Source: Bacteroidales bacterium (GTDB taxonomy: Bacteria; Bacteroidota; Bacteroidia; Bacteroidales; UBA3824). From it: a stretch of DNA of 64,000 nucleotides. A program made the translations under genes and the position numbers. This document shows positions 8,700 through 33,609 of this stretch, one piece after another. Within the stretch, counting starts at the first letter, position 1; the number at the start of each line of letters is the position of its first letter. The DNA is taken from the NCBI GenBank assembly GCA_017412115.1, contig JAFPYR010000069.1:1-64000 (forward strand). The letters run 5' to 3'. The notes below the pieces were generated by a model, which was not told the origin of the DNA, ran no database searches, and saw nothing but the letters and a program-made list of their open reading frames with translations.

Positions 8700-8730
8700 A
8701 TTATGAATTATGCATTATGAATTATGCATT
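8700..8730. repeat. ATTATGA/ATTATGC heptamer array
   Basis: About four heptamer units in alternating form (ATTATGA, ATTATGC, ATTATGA, ATTATGC). The ccsBA stop codon TAA at 8722-8724 and its last two codons lie inside the array. Confidence 0.85.
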
Positions 8731-10722
8731 AGCATAACTATGCATACCGCCTAAAAAATAATTTACACCGAAATATGTCATCAACACTGTCAAAAAAGCC
8801 AAAATAAAGAAGCGTTGAAGTTTTTTATCGTTGCTGACAAACTTTAAATCAGTCTTATGAAATGGCAAAGCGTAAACCATAAACGTTATCAGCGCCCATG
8901 TTTCTTTCGGGTCCCAAGCCCAATAACGCCCCCAAGAAATATTTGCCCAAACAGCACCTAAAAAGATGCCGATACCAAGCAGAATTTCAGCAGGATAGAG
9001 CATTATAAGGCTTAAAACCGAGAGTTGCGTAAGTTTGTCTTTGTCCTTTATGAAAAGCGAAAAAACACCGCTAAAAAACGTGAACGCCAACAGCGAATAC
9101 GCAATCATAATTGTTGAAACGTGTGCGCTTAGAATCGGTGAATTAAGTACCGGCATAAGCGGAGTTATCTGCGGATTTCGCTGCGAAAGCCACGCCACCA
9201 AAAGCGTAAACCCGGAAATCAAAAATCCAAATGGCGTAAGTATTTTAATTTTGCTACCGAAAATAATCGCTAACACCATTATTACCAACGACATAAACAA
9301 CATCGTTTCGTAACCGTTGCCCATCGGAATCCGTCCCGAAACATACCAACGCAAAACATATCCGCAAAAATCAACAATCATTGACATTATCAGCAGAATT
9401 CTTAACACGCTAAACAATTTCGGCGGAAAGTTTTTGGTAACAATCATCACGAAAAACGCCAAAAATCCAATCGTCAAATTTACCATAAAAAGTATTTTTG
9501 CGAAGTTGAAAGCGTTGAAAATAATTTCAGCTTTAACCTTTGATTTTGAGAGCCTTGCGGTGGAATTTTCGGGCAGTTGTTCAAACAGCGTTCCGTTTGT
9601 TAACATGATAATAAGTCCCACTTTTTCGTCGGTTTCTTTTATCGCTTTTGAGATTTTGGAATTTTCGGTAAGGTTATGCTTATTAATCAACGCATTAAGA
9701 CGATAATCTTCACCGTCAAAAAGGTCGGCAAACGATACGAATTTCCCTTGAGCACCAAGTTCACGGCGCAAATTTTCGTCCTTGATGAGAATCATTTTTT
9801 CGTCTTTCCAGGCATCAGGACGGTAAAGCCAACCGCAAACAACTTGCTCAGGCGTTAAAGTATAATAATTCGGTTTGCCGTAAATTTTCGACACAAAATC
9901 CCTTGCCATCGTATTGAAGGGAGCGACTCGTCCGTTATAAACAATCTGTTTTTCAGAGACTTGCGCAGACTCTTGATTGCTTATTGTCGGCACTTTGTGG
10001 TTTTGCGCATTTGCGTTAATACCGATAATAAAAATCAGTAAAAACATTCCGCCTTTTTTCAGAGCCGGATGTTTCAAAAGTTTCAAGAAATCAGCTTTTT
10101 TTGAAAACAAAATCCACAATCCCGAAACCGCAAAAATCAAATATCCCAAATAAGTCAGGAAAATTCCGACGGGATCGTAATTGACAGACAAATAAGTTCC
10201 TAAACCGTCAGGGTCGTAACTCGTCTGATAAAAACGAAAACCGTTTTTTTTGCAAATATTGTTCATCGAAACCTCGGCTTTTTCACCCGCAACAGTCAAA
10301 AAACTGACATAATCCATCGGCATTTGAGTCCCTTGGTAATTAACGACTTTAAAACTGTCAAGGCGCATTTCAAAACCGAGTTGCGACTTAGACATATTCT
10401 CTTTGCTAACATAAAAATCTGCTGTTTCGCCTTTACGCAAATGCAAGATTCCTTCTTTACCGGAAATTCTCGTTATCAGCGCGCCTAACAAAATTATTAT
10501 CAGCGAAATATGAAATAACAACACCGGCAGTTTTTTCATAAGTTTTTTTACGAAAACTGCTAACGAGAATACCGCCAAGATACCCCACAAAACACAAAAC
10601 CACACAGAGTTATAAATGTTTTTATCTGCGGTTTCCTGACTAAAAAACGTTGCCACCGCCATAGCAACAAGCACAGCGGAAAAAACGAATAATATAGTTA
10701 TTTTTAAGATTCTGGATTTCAT
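8722..10722 (-). CDS. ccsBA: Fused cytochrome c maturation protein CcsBA (ResB-ResC)
   Basis: 666 residues. System II haem exporter and ligase, which moves haem across the inner membrane and attaches it to CxxCH motifs outside. The N-terminal ResB/CcsB part (about 1-200) has several membrane helices and a periplasmic loop. A periplasmic section follows with VYNGRVAPFNTMARDFV, typical of the Bacteroidetes fusion. The CcsA part (about 390-666) carries GNGYETMLF and the haem-binding WWD motif starting at W597 (WGRYWAWDPKETWAL), with histidines nearby. It directly follows three haem-protein or related genes, so its clients may be their products. It has its own promoter in the 59-bp gap. Confidence 0.9.
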   Translation of the reverse strand: MKSRILKITILFVFSAVLVAMAVATFFSQETADKNIYNSVWFCVLWGILAVFSLAVFVKKLMKKLPVLLFHISLIIILLGALITRISGKEGILHLRKGETADFYVSKENMSKSQLGFEMRLDSFKVVNYQGTQMPMDYVSFLTVAGEKAEVSMNNICKKNGFRFYQTSYDPDGLGTYLSVNYDPVGIFLTYLGYLIFAVSGLWILFSKKADFLKLLKHPALKKGGMFLLIFIIGINANAQNHKVPTISNQESAQVSEKQIVYNGRVAPFNTMARDFVSKIYGKPNYYTLTPEQVVCGWLYRPDAWKDEKMILIKDENLRRELGAQGKFVSFADLFDGEDYRLNALINKHNLTENSKISKAIKETDEKVGLIIMLTNGTLFEQLPENSTARLSKSKVKAEIIFNAFNFAKILFMVNLTIGFLAFFVMIVTKNFPPKLFSVLRILLIMSMIVDFCGYVLRWYVSGRIPMGNGYETMLFMSLVIMVLAIIFGSKIKILTPFGFLISGFTLLVAWLSQRNPQITPLMPVLNSPILSAHVSTIMIAYSLLAFTFFSGVFSLFIKDKDKLTQLSVLSLIMLYPAEILLGIGIFLGAVWANISWGRYWAWDPKETWALITFMVYALPFHKTDLKFVSNDKKLQRFFILAFLTVLMTYFGVNYFLGGMHSYANA

Positions 10723-10781: not shown

Positions 10782-11513
10782 CTAATCCGCTTTCGCACCA
10801 CTCAAAATCCATTGGTCGATCCAATCTTTATCTGATTCAAGATCAAGTTTATCGGTGTGATTATGTTTTACTTCAGGAAAATCACCGTGCAATATTTTAT
10901 GAATAGTGCTGCGGGCTGTATCTCCCGGGGTAACGATATTAAAATCAGAACGTTTGGTAGATTGTATTCCAACTATCGCACTGTAACTTTTACCTTCCGT
11001 TAAAAATAATCCCGCCGCTGCATGGTCTGCCGACAGACCATGACATTTGGAACATTTCGGCGTAAAATAATTGTCTTGAATGAATGAATACATCCCAGCT
11101 TTTACTTCTCCAGCGTCCCAACGGATGGTGTCGGTGTTGTTTTTGTCCTCATCAGTAAGTTTTTTCTGACTTATTGTTAAAACACGTTGTCGAATACGAT
11201 TCAAAACTGTAATCTCCAAATAATTGACAGTCTGAGAAATTCCGCCTAACGTGATATGAATTTTGCCGCCTCCGTCTGAAATTATCTGTTTTGAAATTTC
11301 CGAATATTCTGCAATATCGTCTTTCGGATTTGTTTCATTAACAAAACCCGAAAGCGTAACGGAATAACCTTCAGGCCAACTATTCAAGCCGGTAATTGTA
11401 GCATCAACAGCCACTTTCAATCCTTCTTGATGATAAGTATATTTTTCCTCAATATCGCCATCATCACAAGCGGCAAACAAAAACGGAATTACTATCAAAA
11501 ATAACTTCTTCAT
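10782..11513 (-). CDS. Mono-haem c-type cytochrome lipoprotein
   Basis: 243 residues. The signal peptide has a lipobox ending at C16 (LFAAC). Residues about 25-115 form a beta-rich domain without a recognised family. The C-terminal cytochrome c-like domain has one haem site, C154-SK-C157-H158 (TPKCSKCHGL), and a later WIDQWILSGA helix typical of cytochrome c domains in Bacteroidetes. It is likely an outer-membrane or periplasmic electron carrier. It is the fifth gene of the iron/haem operon and lies just before ccsBA. Confidence 0.85.
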   Translation of the reverse strand: MKKLFLIVIPFLFAACDDGDIEEKYTYHQEGLKVAVDATITGLNSWPEGYSVTLSGFVNETNPKDDIAEYSEISKQIISDGGGKIHITLGGISQTVNYLEITVLNRIRQRVLTISQKKLTDEDKNNTDTIRWDAGEVKAGMYSFIQDNYFTPKCSKCHGLSADHAAAGLFLTEGKSYSAIVGIQSTKRSDFNIVTPGDTARSTIHKILHGDFPEVKHNHTDKLDLESDKDWIDQWILSGAKAD

Positions 11514-11608: not shown

Positions 11609-12823
11609 TTAAAACGCATATTGTAACATCACGGTTGCTGAATGAGTAGCAAGTCCGAGGTCATCGTTGTCACGGTCAAGCTGTGTAGCGTGTCCGGTAC
11701 GACCCATATTTTGATACATCACTTGAAGTTTCAAATTTGTATCTTTTATGAAATAGTTGAAACCAACTGCCGGCATATTGATTAAACCGTCTTTGTCAGT
11801 AGCATTTCTATCCATAACATCGTAACGTACAGCTACTTGCCATTGAGGTGCAACAAAATATCCGGCTTGAATATATGCTCCCCAATAGTTGAATGTATCA
11901 TCAATTTTCTGTCTATCGGTAAAACCGATATGCATCATATAAGCCTCGGCTGCAATATATAATTTGTTTTTCATGTAAGCAAACTCAAAACCGTAACGAG
12001 AATCGTTTGTAGATTCGCTTTGAGCCTCAACATTTACGTTGGCTGACAATGCAAACATAAGTTTTTCATCGTTAAGATTGTTAGGATTGCCCTGACTTGT
12101 AGGCATATAACCAAATGGCATTACGGCAATTCTTCCCGCATAAAACAATGACGGCAAGCCTTTGATGTCATCGCTCAAAGTTTTTGTAGCGGTATTAACA
12201 CCTGAGCCTGTCCCGTTGAAAATTCCGGCTTCGTAACTGAATTTTTGGTTGGCAACCAATCCGTGAGCCATTACTCCAAGGTCAAAACCTGTTCCTATTG
12301 TAGGATTTACTGCATTTAAAACATGAGGCATAATCACGTTAGAAGTAAGCGAAGTCGGAACTGACGGCAACAATGTTTCGCCCAATGTTGTAAGATATGC
12401 GTGGGTATACGGTGTCTTGAATTTTCCAACTCTAAAAGCGAGTGCATTGTTTGCCTTTACGTCAAACCATGCTTGTTGCAAAATTGCACCGCCCGATGCT
12501 GCTGCATTAATACAAAGGTTAAACGAAATTCTATCATAAACTTTTCCCGTAAAACCGAGAATTGCGTATGGTATTGCAAAACCTGAGTTCATTACATTAT
12601 CTTGATTATAAGCTTTGTCCAAACCCTCATCGTCGTACCAATTATATTTTCCTGCGGTCTGAATCAAGGTGTAAGGCTTGAAAACGAAATCGCCTTTTTG
12701 TGATTTTATCGAAAAACCCTCTCTTCCGGCAAGCGACACAACGCCGTTGTCGGTATCTTCTGTCTGCGCTGATACTGAAAGTGTTACAGCTGATAATATT
12801 GATGCTAAAATTAATTTTTTCAT
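11609..12823 (-). CDS. OprP/OprO-like outer-membrane porin
   Basis: 404 residues. The signal peptide ends VSVSAQ. The mature protein has alternating amphipathic strands and aromatic girdle residues, ending in the outer-membrane insertion signal VMLQYAF (terminal Phe). Segments such as ISFNLCINAA, AFRVGKFKTPYTHAYL and QVAVRYDVMDRNATD resemble phosphate-selective porins O/P. The substrate is unknown; the neighbours suggest iron or small-ligand passage. It sits between the di-haem oxidoreductase gene and the cytochrome lipoprotein gene, same strand. Confidence 0.82.
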   Translation of the reverse strand: MKKLILASILSAVTLSVSAQTEDTDNGVVSLAGREGFSIKSQKGDFVFKPYTLIQTAGKYNWYDDEGLDKAYNQDNVMNSGFAIPYAILGFTGKVYDRISFNLCINAAASGGAILQQAWFDVKANNALAFRVGKFKTPYTHAYLTTLGETLLPSVPTSLTSNVIMPHVLNAVNPTIGTGFDLGVMAHGLVANQKFSYEAGIFNGTGSGVNTATKTLSDDIKGLPSLFYAGRIAVMPFGYMPTSQGNPNNLNDEKLMFALSANVNVEAQSESTNDSRYGFEFAYMKNKLYIAAEAYMMHIGFTDRQKIDDTFNYWGAYIQAGYFVAPQWQVAVRYDVMDRNATDKDGLINMPAVGFNYFIKDTNLKLQVMYQNMGRTGHATQLDRDNDDLGLATHSATVMLQYAF

Positions 12824-12911: not shown

Positions 12912-14351
12912 TTATAATGATTCCAAAAATGTTATAAGTGCCTCTCTGTCTTCTTTATTCATCTTGGCGAAAAGATTTTTAGAGGCTTCTCCTTCGCCGC
13001 CGTGCCACATGATGGCCTCTACAAGGTTTCTTGCGCGTCCGTCATGGAGAAAATATGTATGGCCGTTAACAATTTTTTGAAGACCAATACCCCAAAGCGG
13101 AGTTGTACGCCACTCGTTTCCACGGGCTAAACCGCTGACATAATTATCGTTAAGACCAACACCCATAATCTCGCTGCCCATATCATGAAGCAAATAATCA
13201 GAATATGGATGAATAGTCTGACCACCAAGCCATGGCAATCGTGTACCGTTAAGAAGTACAGAACCTTGCGGCTGTGTATGAAGTGTTGTAACATGACACA
13301 AATGACAGCCCGCCTGATAAAACATCTGTTCTCCACGTTTTACTTTTGGGTCATTGACATTTCTACGAGCCGGAACTCCAAGACTTTGCATGTAAAGGTC
13401 AACGTCTTCCATTTGATCTGAAGTTACATCAAGTTGTTTATAAGTCAGTCCCATTTGACTTGAGGCTTGCTCCATTTGAGCTTGTCCTTCACAAATTTCT
13501 TCAGGGAAACGGCTGTTTGTAGAACCCATATCAGAAGAAAAACCAAGTTCCACGGTAAGGTCAGCATGTTGAGCCTTGTTGCCGGAGAGTCCGAGCTGAA
13601 GCACTCCACGCTCTTTTATATAGTTGGCACGTCCCGAAATTCCGTATTCAGGATAGTTGCTCTGTTTTGCCAATTGTTCAATTTCGTTGCGATCGATAGC
13701 CATCATTTGTCCCATTCCGACATGTCGAAGCGGAATTCTTACCGTACAAAATAGATCTTCGGGAGCAATTGAATCGGCATACCATTCGGTAATAGTGTAA
13801 TTGGGTTTAGCAAGTTCGTATTTTTCACCGTCGGGAAATTCAAAAGTCTGAAAATCATATTTTACTTTCAACTTACCTTCGGGTTTAACACCGATAATAG
13901 CATTGTCGTGAACCACACGACCGTAATCTTGAAAAAAAGCACCGTTTTTTCTTGTAATATAAATCAACAAGGATGAAAAACCAAAATCACCGCTACCGCC
14001 GTTTGACCAAAGTGTCGGCTCGGTGCGTCCGGCATTACGGTGGCAACTTCCGCAAGAATATCCGGCATAAACAGGTCCTAAACCACCTTGACTTTGAGAA
14101 GTGCCGAGCGGATCATCGTAAAGTTTGTCACCATTATTGAATCTTGAAGTATATTTTCCACTTACCCAACCAGCATCAGTATCAAAGGCGTATGACGATG
14201 ACAAAAATACCGTTGAGGTGCCCGCTGAAAGTGCGTAGCCCTCAGGTATTGTAATTTCGTCAACCTCAATACCGTCTTCGTTGTCGCATGCAGAAAACAT
14301 CAACATCCCGACACAATAGATAATAAAAAAGATTTGTTTGTTTAATTTCAT
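12912..14351 (-). CDS. Di-haem oxidoreductase/putative peroxidase (COG3488 'thiol oxidoreductase') lipoprotein
   Basis: 479 residues. Lipobox ends at C22 (FSAC). Two c-type haem sites are visible: C100-GS-C103-H104 and C349-HL-C352-H353. The family, distantly related to MauG and cytochrome c peroxidases, commonly accompanies imelysin genes in iron-uptake loci. The C-terminus (TPLWGIGLQ ... FLHDGRARNLVEAIMWHGGEG) is typical of COG3488. It probably oxidises or reduces an iron complex or an acceptor in the periplasm; that role is an inference from context. It needs haem attachment, for which ccsBA lies downstream. Confidence 0.87.
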   Translation of the reverse strand: MKLNKQIFFIIYCVGMLMFSACDNEDGIEVDEITIPEGYALSAGTSTVFLSSSYAFDTDAGWVSGKYTSRFNNGDKLYDDPLGTSQSQGGLGPVYAGYSCGSCHRNAGRTEPTLWSNGGSGDFGFSSLLIYITRKNGAFFQDYGRVVHDNAIIGVKPEGKLKVKYDFQTFEFPDGEKYELAKPNYTITEWYADSIAPEDLFCTVRIPLRHVGMGQMMAIDRNEIEQLAKQSNYPEYGISGRANYIKERGVLQLGLSGNKAQHADLTVELGFSSDMGSTNSRFPEEICEGQAQMEQASSQMGLTYKQLDVTSDQMEDVDLYMQSLGVPARRNVNDPKVKRGEQMFYQAGCHLCHVTTLHTQPQGSVLLNGTRLPWLGGQTIHPYSDYLLHDMGSEIMGVGLNDNYVSGLARGNEWRTTPLWGIGLQKIVNGHTYFLHDGRARNLVEAIMWHGGEGEASKNLFAKMNKEDREALITFLESL

Positions 14352-14439: not shown

Positions 14440-15627
14440 TTAGTGAATAGTTCTTGCTTTTCCGTCTTTGAAAATCAAATATTCCAAAGTGTGGAAACCG
14501 CGAAGATTTTGTGCTGAGGCAATATCCTGAGCGTGTTTGGTACCGTCCTCACCTTCGGGAATTTCCTCATAATCGCCAGACCATTCAAGTTCACCCCAAG
14601 ACTGAGTATTGAAAATTGTTACAATACCGCTTAGGTCAAGAGGCCAAGAGTCCATGTTAGGATCAAGACCTTTGTCAGCAACAGGTCCGAAAAGGAACGC
14701 TTCTGAACTTTCCCAAGGAGTACGGGCTGCAACCCAAGCATCAGCACATTTTGAAAATCCATCATTTGACGGATTCTTTTCAAAGGCTACAACAGCATCA
14801 TAAAGATCGGTATTTCTGTCTTTCAAAGATTTGTATGTCGGCAATACTACATTATTAACATACTGAGAAAGAACTGCATCCCAATCATAATCAGCAAGAT
14901 TATCATCAATAAATGTCTTGAGTTCTTTATCTAAAACGTCACGCAAATCAGCGCATTTTACAATGGCTGTTTGAGCCTCTTTGCTTCCGAGATTGTTACG
15001 GAAAGGCTGCGGAATTGACATAATAGCATCTTGTGCATCTTTGATTGCAGCAATTACCTTAGCATCGAGTTCAGCATTTTTACCATTAATTACTTTTGAA
15101 ATAGAATTTGCGTTAATAGTACCGTCAAGCGAACCGTAATAAGCATTTTTTACAGAAGTGATGTTGTTAGTAAAGTCAACACGCGAATGCCATGAAAACC
15201 AAGATTCTACTTGAAGAACCGCATTAACAGGGTCAGTTGCAAAAAGTTCTACCGGGCTACCGATTTTTGTATCGCTGACCTCGTTAGCGATGTCAATGCA
15301 ACCGTCAATGATTTGTTCAACGCAATCTTTTGAAGATTTGAAACCTGCGCCCTCATGAGAAAGGAAACGTTTTGCATAACTCTCGCCGCCTTCGTAACTG
15401 TCATTCCAATAAGCGTAAAGATTATCGGAATCGGTTTTCAAAAGGGTCGCAACTGTACGCATATAGTTGCCCCATTGTTTTGCGTATGCTGAATTGTACT
15501 CTGTATCAATAGCTACTGAATCAGCCATTTCCACTAATTTGTCTTCTTCTTTGTCCTTGTCACAAGAAGTGAATGTTGCTGCTGAAAAGGCAATCAAGCC
15601 CGCAGCGATAAAAACTCTTTTCTTCAT
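14440..15627 (-). CDS. Imelysin-family (M75/IrpA-like) lipoprotein
   Basis: 395 residues. Lipobox FTSC, followed by an acidic linker. The imelysin hallmarks are present: the GxHxxE motif as GFHTLE (G377, H379, E382) and the upstream ARTPWESSEAFLFGP segment. Imelysin proteins (insulin-cleaving membrane protease ICMP, IrpA, Algp7-type EfeO) are linked to iron uptake; protease activity is doubtful for most members. It is encoded between an outer-membrane barrel gene and the di-haem oxidoreductase gene, a known gene partnership. The GxHxxE site is the likely metal-binding site. Confidence 0.88.
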   Translation of the reverse strand: MKKRVFIAAGLIAFSAATFTSCDKDKEEDKLVEMADSVAIDTEYNSAYAKQWGNYMRTVATLLKTDSDNLYAYWNDSYEGGESYAKRFLSHEGAGFKSSKDCVEQIIDGCIDIANEVSDTKIGSPVELFATDPVNAVLQVESWFSWHSRVDFTNNITSVKNAYYGSLDGTINANSISKVINGKNAELDAKVIAAIKDAQDAIMSIPQPFRNNLGSKEAQTAIVKCADLRDVLDKELKTFIDDNLADYDWDAVLSQYVNNVVLPTYKSLKDRNTDLYDAVVAFEKNPSNDGFSKCADAWVAARTPWESSEAFLFGPVADKGLDPNMDSWPLDLSGIVTIFNTQSWGELEWSGDYEEIPEGEDGTKHAQDIASAQNLRGFHTLEYLIFKDGKARTIH

Positions 15628-15648: not shown

Positions 15649-15695
15649 AATTATGAATAACTAATTATGAATTATGCATTATGAATTATGCATTA
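15649..15695. repeat. ATTATGA/ATTATGC heptamer array
   Basis: About five heptamer units, with one broken by AACTA. The array touches the stop codon (15693-15695) of the upstream barrel gene and ends 22 bp before the imelysin start. Confidence 0.8.
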
Positions 15696-17009
15696 TTTTT
15701 GACAAAACCAACCGATATATCCGATTGAAATACAAAATTCGTTTTCGTTGTTGTAATTGGTTTTGGTGTTTTGGAACATCTCATTTGTACCGATTCTGCG
15801 ACAAGTGTAATCCGCTTTGATAACAAGATTCGGCAAAGCGAAATAGTTAAGACCGAAAGTCCAATAACTAACCTGACAACGGTCGTCCATAAGTTGCAGA
15901 TTTACACCTTTTTCCTGAGGATTGTAATACTCGTAATGAGCAAACGGATAAAGTACAGGGAATTTGTCGCCTCCGTGGAAAACGTTTTTCAAATTAACAC
16001 CGAGTTCAAAATTGTAGTTCAAAGCTTTTTCAGCAACATTAGTTGTACGACTATAACCCGATTTTGAACTATAAGTACGGATAACCTTGTCCACCGCCTC
16101 AACATCCGTCAAACCGCCCTGCAAAAAGTTTCCGCGAAATGTAATATAATCGTTTTTGTATTGTGCATCAAACGAATAGATAGAAATATTAATCGGGTCG
16201 TAAGTATCAAAAGTAGCCAAACGGTCAGAATTTTTGCCAGCATCATAACAATAATACATCGAATATCCAAGTCTTAAACCTTTAATTCCTTTGTAGTCGA
16301 GTCTGAAAGTATAGGCAGGTGAAGTAAAATTGTCAGCCTCAAAAAATCCTTGCTTGCCGCCTTTAATCCAATTATAACGGCTGAAACCGAGCGGATTTTG
16401 ACCGGCAACAACTTGCGCTTGATATTCAAATTTAGAAAAGTTGGAACCGAATTTACCGAAAAATTCCAAACCTGTTTCGTGCCAAGTACATGGCATTATG
16501 GTAGTTGCACCTTCGGGACGGAAAGTCGTAAAAAAGTTTATCGGTTCGTGATGAGTGTTTGTCAGACCAACGGGCAAAATAAGATGTCCGACTTTAACGT
16601 TAAACTCTTTTATGAATTTTCTTGTGATGTGAAATTGTTCGAGTGCAACCTCACCGCCTTTTTCGATTTCGGTTTCATACTCGCCGTTTTCGCTGCCCGA
16701 ACCGGCTTCAAGTTCCATTGCCATACCTGTACCGCCGGCTTCAAACTCGATTTCAGCACCGAGAATCCATTTGTCGGAAAACTTATAATCAAAAGCTAAA
16801 ATAAATCTCGGCAAAGAAATATCTGCGTGATTGATTTCAGAATTTCCGGTTGTAGAACCGCTCCAACGGTTAAGACCGTAATTTTTCCATGAAGCAAGCA
16901 TTTCGCCGTAGCCGCCAAAACGAAATTTTTGATAAGTAGTGTCGTCTTGTGCATTAACACTAACATTAACCATTAACAAAACTGATAATAATAACAAAAA
17001 ATGTTTCAT
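15693..17009 (-). CDS. Outer-membrane beta-barrel protein, first gene of the iron/haem operon
   Basis: 438 residues from the ATG at 17009, which begins a signal peptide (MKHFLLLLSV ... VNAQ); the open frame reaches 9 codons further. Many alternating strands (KFRFGGYGEMLASW, WILGAEIEFEAGG, NVKVGHLILPVGLTN, KGLRLGYSMYYCYD) point to a porin-like barrel. No closer family assigned. Possible substrates are iron chelates, given imelysin and the di-haem protein behind it. Its promoter region carries two dyads (17062-17083, 17096-17115) matching one upstream of pflB. Confidence 0.78.
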   Translation of the reverse strand: MKHFLLLLSVLLMVNVSVNAQDDTTYQKFRFGGYGEMLASWKNYGLNRWSGSTTGNSEINHADISLPRFILAFDYKFSDKWILGAEIEFEAGGTGMAMELEAGSGSENGEYETEIEKGGEVALEQFHITRKFIKEFNVKVGHLILPVGLTNTHHEPINFFTTFRPEGATTIMPCTWHETGLEFFGKFGSNFSKFEYQAQVVAGQNPLGFSRYNWIKGGKQGFFEADNFTSPAYTFRLDYKGIKGLRLGYSMYYCYDAGKNSDRLATFDTYDPINISIYSFDAQYKNDYITFRGNFLQGGLTDVEAVDKVIRTYSSKSGYSRTTNVAEKALNYNFELGVNLKNVFHGGDKFPVLYPFAHYEYYNPQEKGVNLQLMDDRCQVSYWTFGLNYFALPNLVIKADYTCRRIGTNEMFQNTKTNYNNENEFCISIGYIGWFCQK

Positions 17010-17033: not shown

Positions 17034-17064
17034 CAAAATTAGAGAGGTCTTTTTTCATGGGAAA
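17034..17064 (-). promoter_or_regulatory. Promoter of the iron/haem operon with a poor -33 element
   Basis: On the minus strand TAATTTTG at 17041-17034 is a consensus -7 box. At the -33 position (17064-17062) there is TTT instead of TTG, which suggests that an activator is needed. The -33 position overlaps the edge of the dyad at 17062-17083. Confidence 0.65.
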
Positions 17065-17115
17065 TACCTAAAATTAGGTATTTTTTAGGTAAAAAAATAC
17101 TCAAATTTAAGTATT
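17062..17115 (-). promoter_or_regulatory. Tandem dyad operators AATACY-N8-RGTATT
   Basis: Dyad 1 is a perfect 22-bp palindrome at 17062-17083. Dyad 2 at 17096-17115 has AATACT and AGTATT arms around 8 bp. Their centres are 33 bp apart, about three helical turns, so a protein would bind on the same face. The centre of dyad 1 is 35 bp from the centre of the -7 box, near -42 if the -7 box is centred at -7. The same dyad and distance occur before pflB. Confidence 0.7.
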
Positions 17116-31209: not shown

Positions 31210-33450
31210 TTACAACGTTTTATTAATTGTTCTGCTCAAAACGTCTAATTGTTGTTCTCTTGTGAGTTTTACAAAGTTGACAGCGTAACCCGAAACGCGG
31301 ATTGTAAGTTGCGGATATTTTTCGGGATGTTCCATTGCATCGACTAAAAGTTCACGGTCAAAAACATTGACATTCAAATGATGACCTCCGTCCGGCGTGA
31401 AATATCCGTCCATGAGATTAACAAGGTTTGAAATCTTTGTGTTGTCATCTTTGCCTAACGTACCCGGCGAAATCGCAAAAGTATACGAAATTCCGTCGTG
31501 AGAATGTTGGAACGGAAGTTTTGCAACCGAAGACAAAGCAGCAACAGCACCTTTAACATCACGACCGTTCATAGGATTTGCACCCGGAGCAAACGGAACG
31601 CCTTTTGCTCTGCCGTCAGGAGTTGCGCCGGTGTTTTTACCGTAAACAACGTTTGAAGTAATTGTCAAAAGCGACTGCGTAGGCGTTGCATGACGGTATG
31701 TTTCATGCTGACGAAGATACTCCATAAATTTCTCGGTAATCATAAGAGCGAGTTTGTCGGTTTCTTCGTTGTTGTTGCCGAAAGCCTCTGGAGCGTTGCC
31801 CTCTTGTTTGAAGTCAACAGCAAGACCTTTTTCGTCTCTTATAACACGAACTTTTCCATATTTAATTGCTGCTAATGAATCCGTTACGATGCTAAGACCT
31901 GCAATACCTGTTGCTCTTGTGCGGTAAACATCACCGTCGATAAGCGACATTTGATAAGCCTCATAATCGTATTTGTCGTGCATGTAGTGAATGATTTTCA
32001 GAGCGTTAACGTATGTTTTAGCAAGCCAACGCATCATGTTTTCAAACTTGTACATCACGGTATCGTAATCCAAATAATCGCTTGTTATCGGTGCGAAATC
32101 AGGGCCGATTTGTTCACCTGTCATCTCGTCTTTACCGCCGTTGATAGCGTAGAGAAGACATTTTGCGAGGTTGGCTCTTGCGCCGAAAAACTGCATTTGT
32201 TTTCCGATTTTCATCGGGCTAACGCAGCACGCAATGCCATAATCGTCGCCATAATCAGGACGCATAAGGTCGTCGTTTTCGTACTGAATAGCACTCGTTT
32301 TGATTGACATTTTAGCGCAATAACGTTTCCAATTTTCGGGAGCGTTGTTGAACCAAAGCACTGTCAAGTTTGGTTCGGGAGCAGGACCGAGATTCTCCAA
32401 CGTGTGAAGTATTCTGTAACTTGTTTTTGTCACCATACTTCTACCGTCAACACCCTGACCACCAATACTTTCGGTTACCCAAATCGGGTCGCCGGAGAAA
32501 AGGTCGTTGTATTCGGGAGTACGCAAAAATCTTACGATTCTAAGTTTGATAATCATCTGATCTATCAACTCTTGCGCTTCTTCTTCAGTGAGTTTTCCTT
32601 CTTTAATATCTTTTTCGATAAAAATATCCAAAAATGTGCTGACACGTCCGAGCGACATTGCAGCACCGTCTTGGTCTTTTACTGCGCCCAAATATCCGAA
32701 ATAAACGAACTGAACAGCCTCGCGTGCGTTTTGAGCGGGACGTGTTACGTCAAAACCGTAATTCTGACACATAACAACAAAATCCTTCAAAGCGGCAATC
32801 TGTTCGGAAGTTTCTTCGCGGCTCTGAATGCACTCTTCGGTCATTTCCTGAATGTCAAGACGGTTCAAGAAACGTTTTTTCTCTTCAATAAGGTTGTTGA
32901 CACCGTAGAGAGCGATTCTGCGGTAGTCGCCGATGATTCTTCCGCGTCCGTAAGCGTCGGGCAAACCCGTGATAATGTGAGCGTGACGTGCCGCACGAAT
33001 ATCGGGAGTATAAGCCGAGAATACGCCTTCGTTGTGAGTTTTACGATATTTGGTATAAATGGTTTTGGTATCAGGGTCAAGACTATAACCGTATGCTTTT
33101 AAAGCGTTTTCCACCATGCGGATACCGCCTTTTGGGAAAATACCGCGTTTCAAAGGTTTATCGGTTTGAAGTCCGACAATAACTTCGTTTTCCTTGTCAA
33201 TGTAACCTGCTTGATAGGTTGTAAGAGTTTGAGGCAGTTTGGTTTCAGCATCGTAAACGCCTTTTTCGCGTTCGATTTTAAACATTTCGGAAAGTTTTTC
33301 CCAAAGTTTTTTGGTTTTTTCGGTAGGACCGGTTAAAAAACTTTCATCGCCGTAATAAGGCGTGTAATTGTGCTGAATAAAATCTCTGACGTTAATTTCG
33401 CGCTTCCAAATGTAGCCGTCGAAACTGTCAATGCAATTCGTTAATTTCAT
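31210..33450 (-). CDS. pflB: Formate C-acetyltransferase (pyruvate formate-lyase)
   Basis: 746 residues, full length. Converts pyruvate and CoA to acetyl-CoA and formate in anaerobic fermentation through a glycyl radical. The catalytic cysteine pair is C408-C409 ([10 protein letters not shown]), and the glycyl radical residue is G721 in [12 protein letters not shown]. The activating enzyme gene (pflA) is not next to it, which is unusual, and must lie elsewhere. The upstream region carries a dyad shared with the iron/haem operon. It is monocistronic, with its own terminator. Confidence 0.96.
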
Positions 33451-33490: not shown

Positions 33491-33521
33491 CGAAATTACA
33501 ACTTCGGCGCGGCTTATACAA
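33491..33521 (-). promoter_or_regulatory. Promoter of pflB
   Basis: On the minus strand TTG (33521-33519), exactly 20 bp, then TAATTTCG (33498-33491), a one-base deviation from TAnnTTTG. Confidence 0.65.
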
Positions 33522-33539
33522 TACCTAATATGTGGTATT
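33520..33539 (-). promoter_or_regulatory. AATACC-N8-GGTATT dyad before pflB
   Basis: Same half-sites and 8-bp spacer as the dyads at 17063-17082 and 17096-17115. Its centre is 35 bp from the centre of the -7 box, exactly as for the iron/haem operon, and it overlaps the -33 element by two bases. Confidence 0.7.
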
Positions 33540-33609
33540 TTTGTTAAATTAACGCAAAGGAAAAAGAACTCCCGCATTTTTTTCAAAACATAAAAATTTA
33601 GATTTTTTT

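Follow-up and report, generated by a model that had tools for sequence, protein, structure and literature searches.

A conserved 20-bp dyad at a fixed promoter position as the predicted operator of an iron-starvation activator in Bacteroidota

An activator that turns on iron-scavenging and iron-sparing genes under iron scarcity very probably docks at the 20-bp dyad AATACC-N8-GGTATT, which throughout Bacteroidota keeps a single, exact spacing to the transcription start. From its sequence context, the dyad is probably the operator of an iron-starvation activator of Bacteroidota, for which binding by a CdhR-type protein, with a hemerythrin partner or fused hemerythrin domain sensing iron availability, is the most likely prediction. 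We infer all three of the binding of CdhR to the dyad, the role of hemerythrin as sensor, and the validity of this scheme in the genome from which the analysed DNA comes. That DNA, here called the window, is a stretch of 64,000 nucleotides from a Bacteroidales bacterium (contig JAFPYR010000069.1), in which three dyads were confirmed at the positions originally reported for them. The features of the two promoters concerned are as follows.

17063..17082, minus strand: promoter-proximal dyad of the imelysin/di-haem (iron/haem) operon, AATACCTAAAATTAGGTATT / AATACCTAATTTTAGGTATT; proposed activator operator, centred at about -42
17096..17115, minus strand: second, upstream dyad of the iron/haem operon promoter, AATACTCAAATTTAAGTATT / AATACTTAAATTTGAGTATT; 33 bp from the first, start to start, or about three helical turns
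33520..33539, minus strand: dyad of the pflB promoter, AATACCTAATATGTGGTATT / AATACCACATATTAGGTATT
17034..17041, minus strand: -7 box of the iron/haem operon promoter, TAATTTTG
33491..33498, minus strand: -7 box of the pflB promoter, TAATTTCG
33519..33521, minus strand: TTG of the pflB -33 element, overlapping the dyad edge (GGTATTG)

The genes that follow these promoters are:

15693..17009, minus strand: first operon gene, an outer-membrane beta-barrel-like protein (OMP1) with no Pfam hit
14440..15627, minus strand: imelysin (Peptidase_M75)
12912..14351, minus strand: di-haem (thiol) oxidoreductase, DHOR
11609..12823, minus strand: Porin_O_P
10782..11513, minus strand: 243-aa lipoprotein-like protein
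8722..10722, minus strand: ResB/CcsA-type cytochrome c assembly protein
31210..33450, minus strand: pflB, pyruvate formate-lyase

In both promoters the -7 box was located exactly 21 bp downstream of the promoter-proximal dyad on the minus strand, so that the distance from dyad centre to box centre is 35 bp, as the first-pass annotation had held. Its remark that the iron/haem promoter lacks a TTG at -33 was also borne out (GGTATTTCCC), the pflB promoter having one, and the second dyad 33 bp upstream proved real, since 16 of 21 secondary dyads in relatives fall 31-33 bp upstream. Identical copies of the iron/haem operon dyad, AATACCTAATTTTAGGTATT, were found in the same genome at contig C30 and before feoAB at C116, while the pflB dyad, AATACCACATATTAGGTATT, had an exact copy in one relative (G014) and a variant in another (G004). 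A palindrome-like sequence, TTTGTTAAATTAACGCAAA, adjoins the pflB dyad at 33540-33559 and looks similar to the box of the NADH sensor Rex. Its inclusion in the pflB site was considered and dropped, as only the closest relative keeps the palindrome (present in G014, absent from G004).

When compared with reversed patterns, a control simpler than a full null model, the motif AATACY-N8-RGTATT gave 14 exact matches in the window's own genome against 3, AATACC-N8-GGTATT gave 8 against 0, and the dyad together with its -7 box, at no more than one mismatch, gave 11 against 0. The last combination was present in 40 of the 59 genomes searched. With up to three mismatches the motif search was near noise (70 against 48 in the control) and was not used to propose new targets. 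The scan of coding against upstream DNA, called for at the outset, showed that the motif is not equally common in both: nine of the 14 sites were promoter-proximal, 21 bp from a -7 box (imperfect in one case, TATAATTG), and three fell in coding DNA. The remaining two were the second dyad of the window promoter and an intergenic copy with no promoter. At C100 one promoter dyad is shared by two promoters that diverge from it, with 21 bp to either box.

The spacing was also assessed in a manner not conditioned on the spacing itself, by noting all TAnnTTYG occurrences up to 60 bp to each side of 46 distinct exact AATACC-N8-GGTATT dyads in loci of the genus. A -7 box was present at an offset of 21 bp for 33 of the 46 dyads, against at most three at any other offset between 0 and 60 bp. 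The consensus of 45 genus sites (promoter-anchored, at most one mismatch) was AATACCTAATTTTAGGTATTG-N20-TAATTTTGC, and the G completing the -33 TTG was present in 36 of these and absent from the other nine, the window operon being among such promoters. The fixed 21-bp spacing fits an activator centred near -42 (class II). The overlap of the dyad with the -33 element, and the iron-responsive nature of its targets, would also suit the operator of a Fur-, DtxR- or TetR-like repressor that is lifted at low iron. A repressor would not, however, need one exact distance, the -33 TTG that it would cover is missing from nine of the 45 genus promoters, and the dyad is unlike the Fur or DtxR consensus; repression of this kind was therefore judged very improbable.

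Besides the window operon and pflB, the sites in the window's own genome precede genes for FeoAB, for a TonB-dependent receptor from which a lipoprotein gene diverges, for an outer-membrane-like protein and for further lipoproteins. A site with one mismatch stands before a flavodoxin gene, and another site before the gene of a small protein, behind which lies a P-type ATPase-like gene. The feoAB genes recurred behind the motif in relatives from other families. In a public-genome scan with the strict dyad and promoter, all of the 80 records listed were titled Bacteroidota except for one Glaciecola and one Chlorobiota-labelled record. Directly downstream of 121 phylum-wide sites were seven homologues of OMP1, seven hemerythrin or hemerythrin-LuxR genes, six FeoAB, six TonB receptors and one flavodoxin. 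Twelve genomes reached via named loci, each chosen for having at least one site, together held 71 sites against one in the control, with targets that include PFL, flavodoxin, TetR, MMPL, methyltransferase, enolase and hemerythrin genes; in one Bacteroides genome (G311, locus L326) the motif lies upstream of pfl. Taken as a set, the dyad sites look like an iron-starvation regulon.

Several further occurrences were recorded. In the same G311 genome (Bacteroides caecigallinarum, L359) enolase is preceded by a site with an imperfect -7 box, and three Bacteroidales genomes (L142, L157, L164) carry the dyad and promoter ahead of genes that resemble cysteine synthase. In Flavobacteriales and relatives (L115, L140, L146, L158, L176, L383) lipoproteins whose start is rich in Lys, of the C-K-K-x-G-C-T-D type, recur behind the motif, followed in L140 by an imelysin-like match.

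Published expression data provide the link to iron. In Bacteroides thetaiotaomicron, BT2473-2482 (porin, thiol oxidoreductase, peptidase M75, CcsA and an HTH regulator) rise 69-324-fold in low iron and pflA/pflB (BT4735-38) 2.6-8.3-fold. The same three-species study reports low-iron induction of fldA, hmu, FeoB2, TetR/ABC/MMPL loci, PG1236-37 and BT0519-20 (PMC10434189). As the gene content of BT2473-2482 matches that of the window operon, both window promoters have iron-responsive counterparts in a laboratory species. The initial proposal had been that one activator-type site co-controls the operon and pflB with a link to iron, and this is supported, as is the class II position near -42. The signal had been left as oxygen, redox state or iron; the published induction of orthologous loci suggests that it is most likely iron limitation, with oxygen or redox state a possible second input only.

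The regulator had been suggested to belong to the Crp/Fnr family, and this reading was followed first. In it, an FNR-like protein encoded at C132 would occupy the dyad at -42 and turn the genes on without oxygen. The class II position suits such a protein, and the genome encodes no other clear Crp/Fnr HTH protein (most of the genus has one per genome). The C132 protein, aligned over 30 loci, resembles FNR in its C-x2-C-x6-C motif and central Cys; in E. coli, feo and pfl are likewise activated by FNR. The position near -42 is, however, a trait common to LuxR-type activators and hence not specific to Crp/Fnr proteins, and the dyad half-sites differ from TTGAT/TGTGA. Whereas the site is phylum-wide, the FNR-like protein has close relatives only within the genus and its near kin (identity 54% in G029, at most 41% elsewhere). 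Furthermore, genome G020 has a zero-mismatch site before feoAB and no Crp/Fnr relative at E≤1e-3, nor any Crp-type HTH beyond one weak 29-bit match inside a 717-aa frame. A Crp gene stood beside a site only as a possible target (L317). Given the restricted range of FNR-like relatives and the G020 site, together with the NarL/LuxR-like 7-2-7 layout of the dyad and its occurrence before hemerythrin-LuxR genes, the Crp/Fnr reading was dropped as improbable. The passages on HcpR and CrpPg that were consulted contained no matching motif. Two observations on this family stand apart: where a recognition-helix Arg is usual, the FNR-like protein (L043:1480-2169) has a His that the genus conserves, and the arrangement at L317, in Hoylesella nanceiensis, where the motif precedes a Crp/Fnr-family regulator gene, suggests a cascade.

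The best candidate for the activator, on sequence grounds, is a CdhR-type LuxR protein, usually accompanied by an iron-binding hemerythrin protein. CdhR of Porphyromonas gingivalis (PG1237, with hemerythrin partner PG1236) has been called an activator of hmu (hmuYR) (PMC10101095). No CdhR operator is given in the papers searched, and a CdhR box may have been published in the original descriptions (Wu 2009; Chawla 2010). The hemerythrin-LuxR module (Pfam Hemerythrin and GerE), as two genes or fused, is widespread in Bacteroidales. The motif precedes a hemerythrin-LuxR fusion in L114 and L127, lies just upstream of the module in G182, G271, G274, L366 and L381, and forms one apparent operon with hemerythrin, LuxR and FeoAB in G038. 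Among genus-mates, the fused form is present in G003, G005, G008, G016 and G017. In G003 it is found amid genes that match those of the window operon and adjoins a relative of the 243-aa lipoprotein-like gene; between the dyad before it and the nearest -7 box there are about 35 bp instead of 21. Profile and fold searches matched the hemerythrin part to ScdA/YtfE and the LuxR part to VraR/NarL, and the ligand-type residues H93, H137, E141, H171, H215 and E219 were invariant in nine sequences. It is because of these conserved residues that hemerythrin is proposed as the iron sensor.

In the window's own genome, a CdhR-like LuxR protein is encoded at C96 (203 aa, GerE 2.5e-19), with 44% identity to a Prevotella fusion over the HTH region. 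The hemerythrin gene, at C52, is unlinked to it; in several genus-mates, and in many Bacteroidales, the two lie side by side or are fused. No motif was present in the 100-160 bp of upstream sequence examined for either gene. Across 295 Bacteroidales genomes, with two mismatches allowed per site, hemerythrin-positive genomes averaged 1.65 sites (control 0.25) and hemerythrin-negative ones 0.75 (control 0.11), uncorrected for kinship. Carriage of at least three sites was likewise associated with hemerythrin (OR 4.4, p=2e-4, treating these related genomes as independent). Of 89 hemerythrin-negative genomes outside the genus, 43 had one site or more (against a control level of 11%) and 16 had at least two; 65 of 203 hemerythrin-positive genomes had none at this stringency. 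The co-occurrence of hemerythrin and site is thus an association with exceptions in both directions. The sites in hemerythrin-negative genomes, the unlinked LuxR and hemerythrin genes of the window's genome and the HTH regulator inside BT2473-2482 would be expected if a different activator, be it some other response regulator of the LuxR/NarL class or an HTH protein yet to be characterised such as BT_2482, were the iron-starvation regulator and CdhR only a target. This was considered unlikely, as the regulator in the equivalent neighbourhood of both L215 and G003 carries a hemerythrin domain (fused to a LuxR HTH in G003), the motif layout resembles the LuxR/NarL type, and there are few other LuxR-type HTH proteins in the genome.

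Under the preferred CdhR-type reading, a dimer of the activator, built as a receiver-like domain with a NarL/LuxR HTH or as an HTH fused to a hemerythrin domain, would bind the dyad at about -42 (class II), with the half nearer the promoter overlapping the -33 element, and would recruit RNA polymerase to the TAnnTTTG promoter. The partner or fused hemerythrin domain would sense iron availability, and possibly also oxygen. When iron is short, FeoAB ferrous-iron uptake, outer-membrane receptors and the imelysin/di-haem operon would be switched on, flavodoxin would replace ferredoxin, PFL would replace the iron-sulphur enzyme PFOR, and the activator would often turn on its own gene too.

The mechanisms controlling the Bacteroidetes iron response have been described as poorly known and the mode of CdhR as unclear in a 2023 transcriptome study of three Bacteroidetes, in which the iron-limitation genes overlap those induced in colitis (PMC10434189). 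The operator, the fixed promoter geometry and the target list make the proposal directly testable in B. thetaiotaomicron and would allow any genome of the phylum to be read for the regulon. More tentatively, it is quite possible that the iron-starvation regulon of Bacteroidota works throughout the phylum mainly by a positive switch and not by Fur-type derepression, with a hemerythrin-coupled LuxR activator acting at an invariant distance and its di-iron site serving as the iron gauge.

Among known systems, CdhR/PG1236 of P. gingivalis, BT_0519-0520 of B. thetaiotaomicron and the fused form in Prevotella intermedia share the same module of hemerythrin and LuxR HTH. In the CdhR system the module and the predicted targets are induced in low iron, and CdhR is a reported activator of hmuYR (PMC10434189, PMC10101095). 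The papers searched differ in describing for it neither an operator nor a fixed placement at -42 nor a regulon that spans the phylum. The operator consensus of NarL/NarP is TACYYMT-NN-AKRRGTA, a 7-2-7 palindrome. The dyad, TACCTAN-NN-NTAGGTA, has the same 7-2-7 geometry near -42, and its consensus TACCTAA-NN-TTAGGTA agrees with the NarL half-site TACYYMT at six of seven positions per half, the last base deviating. The candidate activator further resembles NarL/LuxR class II activators in its GerE HTH, with best sequence and structure matches to VraR, LiaR and NarL; in contrast, NarL is not known for such targets, for a TAnnTTTG promoter or for a hemerythrin link. FBXL5, an iron and oxygen sensor in animals, and YtfE/ScdA have the hemerythrin fold and conserved His/Glu ligand-type residues in common with the module, whereas here hemerythrin is coupled to a DNA-binding LuxR protein and the metal site is predicted from residues. 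Finally, Fur-controlled iron-starvation regulons comprise the same kinds of targets (feoAB, flavodoxin and TonB receptors), but the mode proposed here is activation at a fixed site instead of repression, through a motif that, by eye, is unlike a GATAATGATAATCATTATC-like Fur box.
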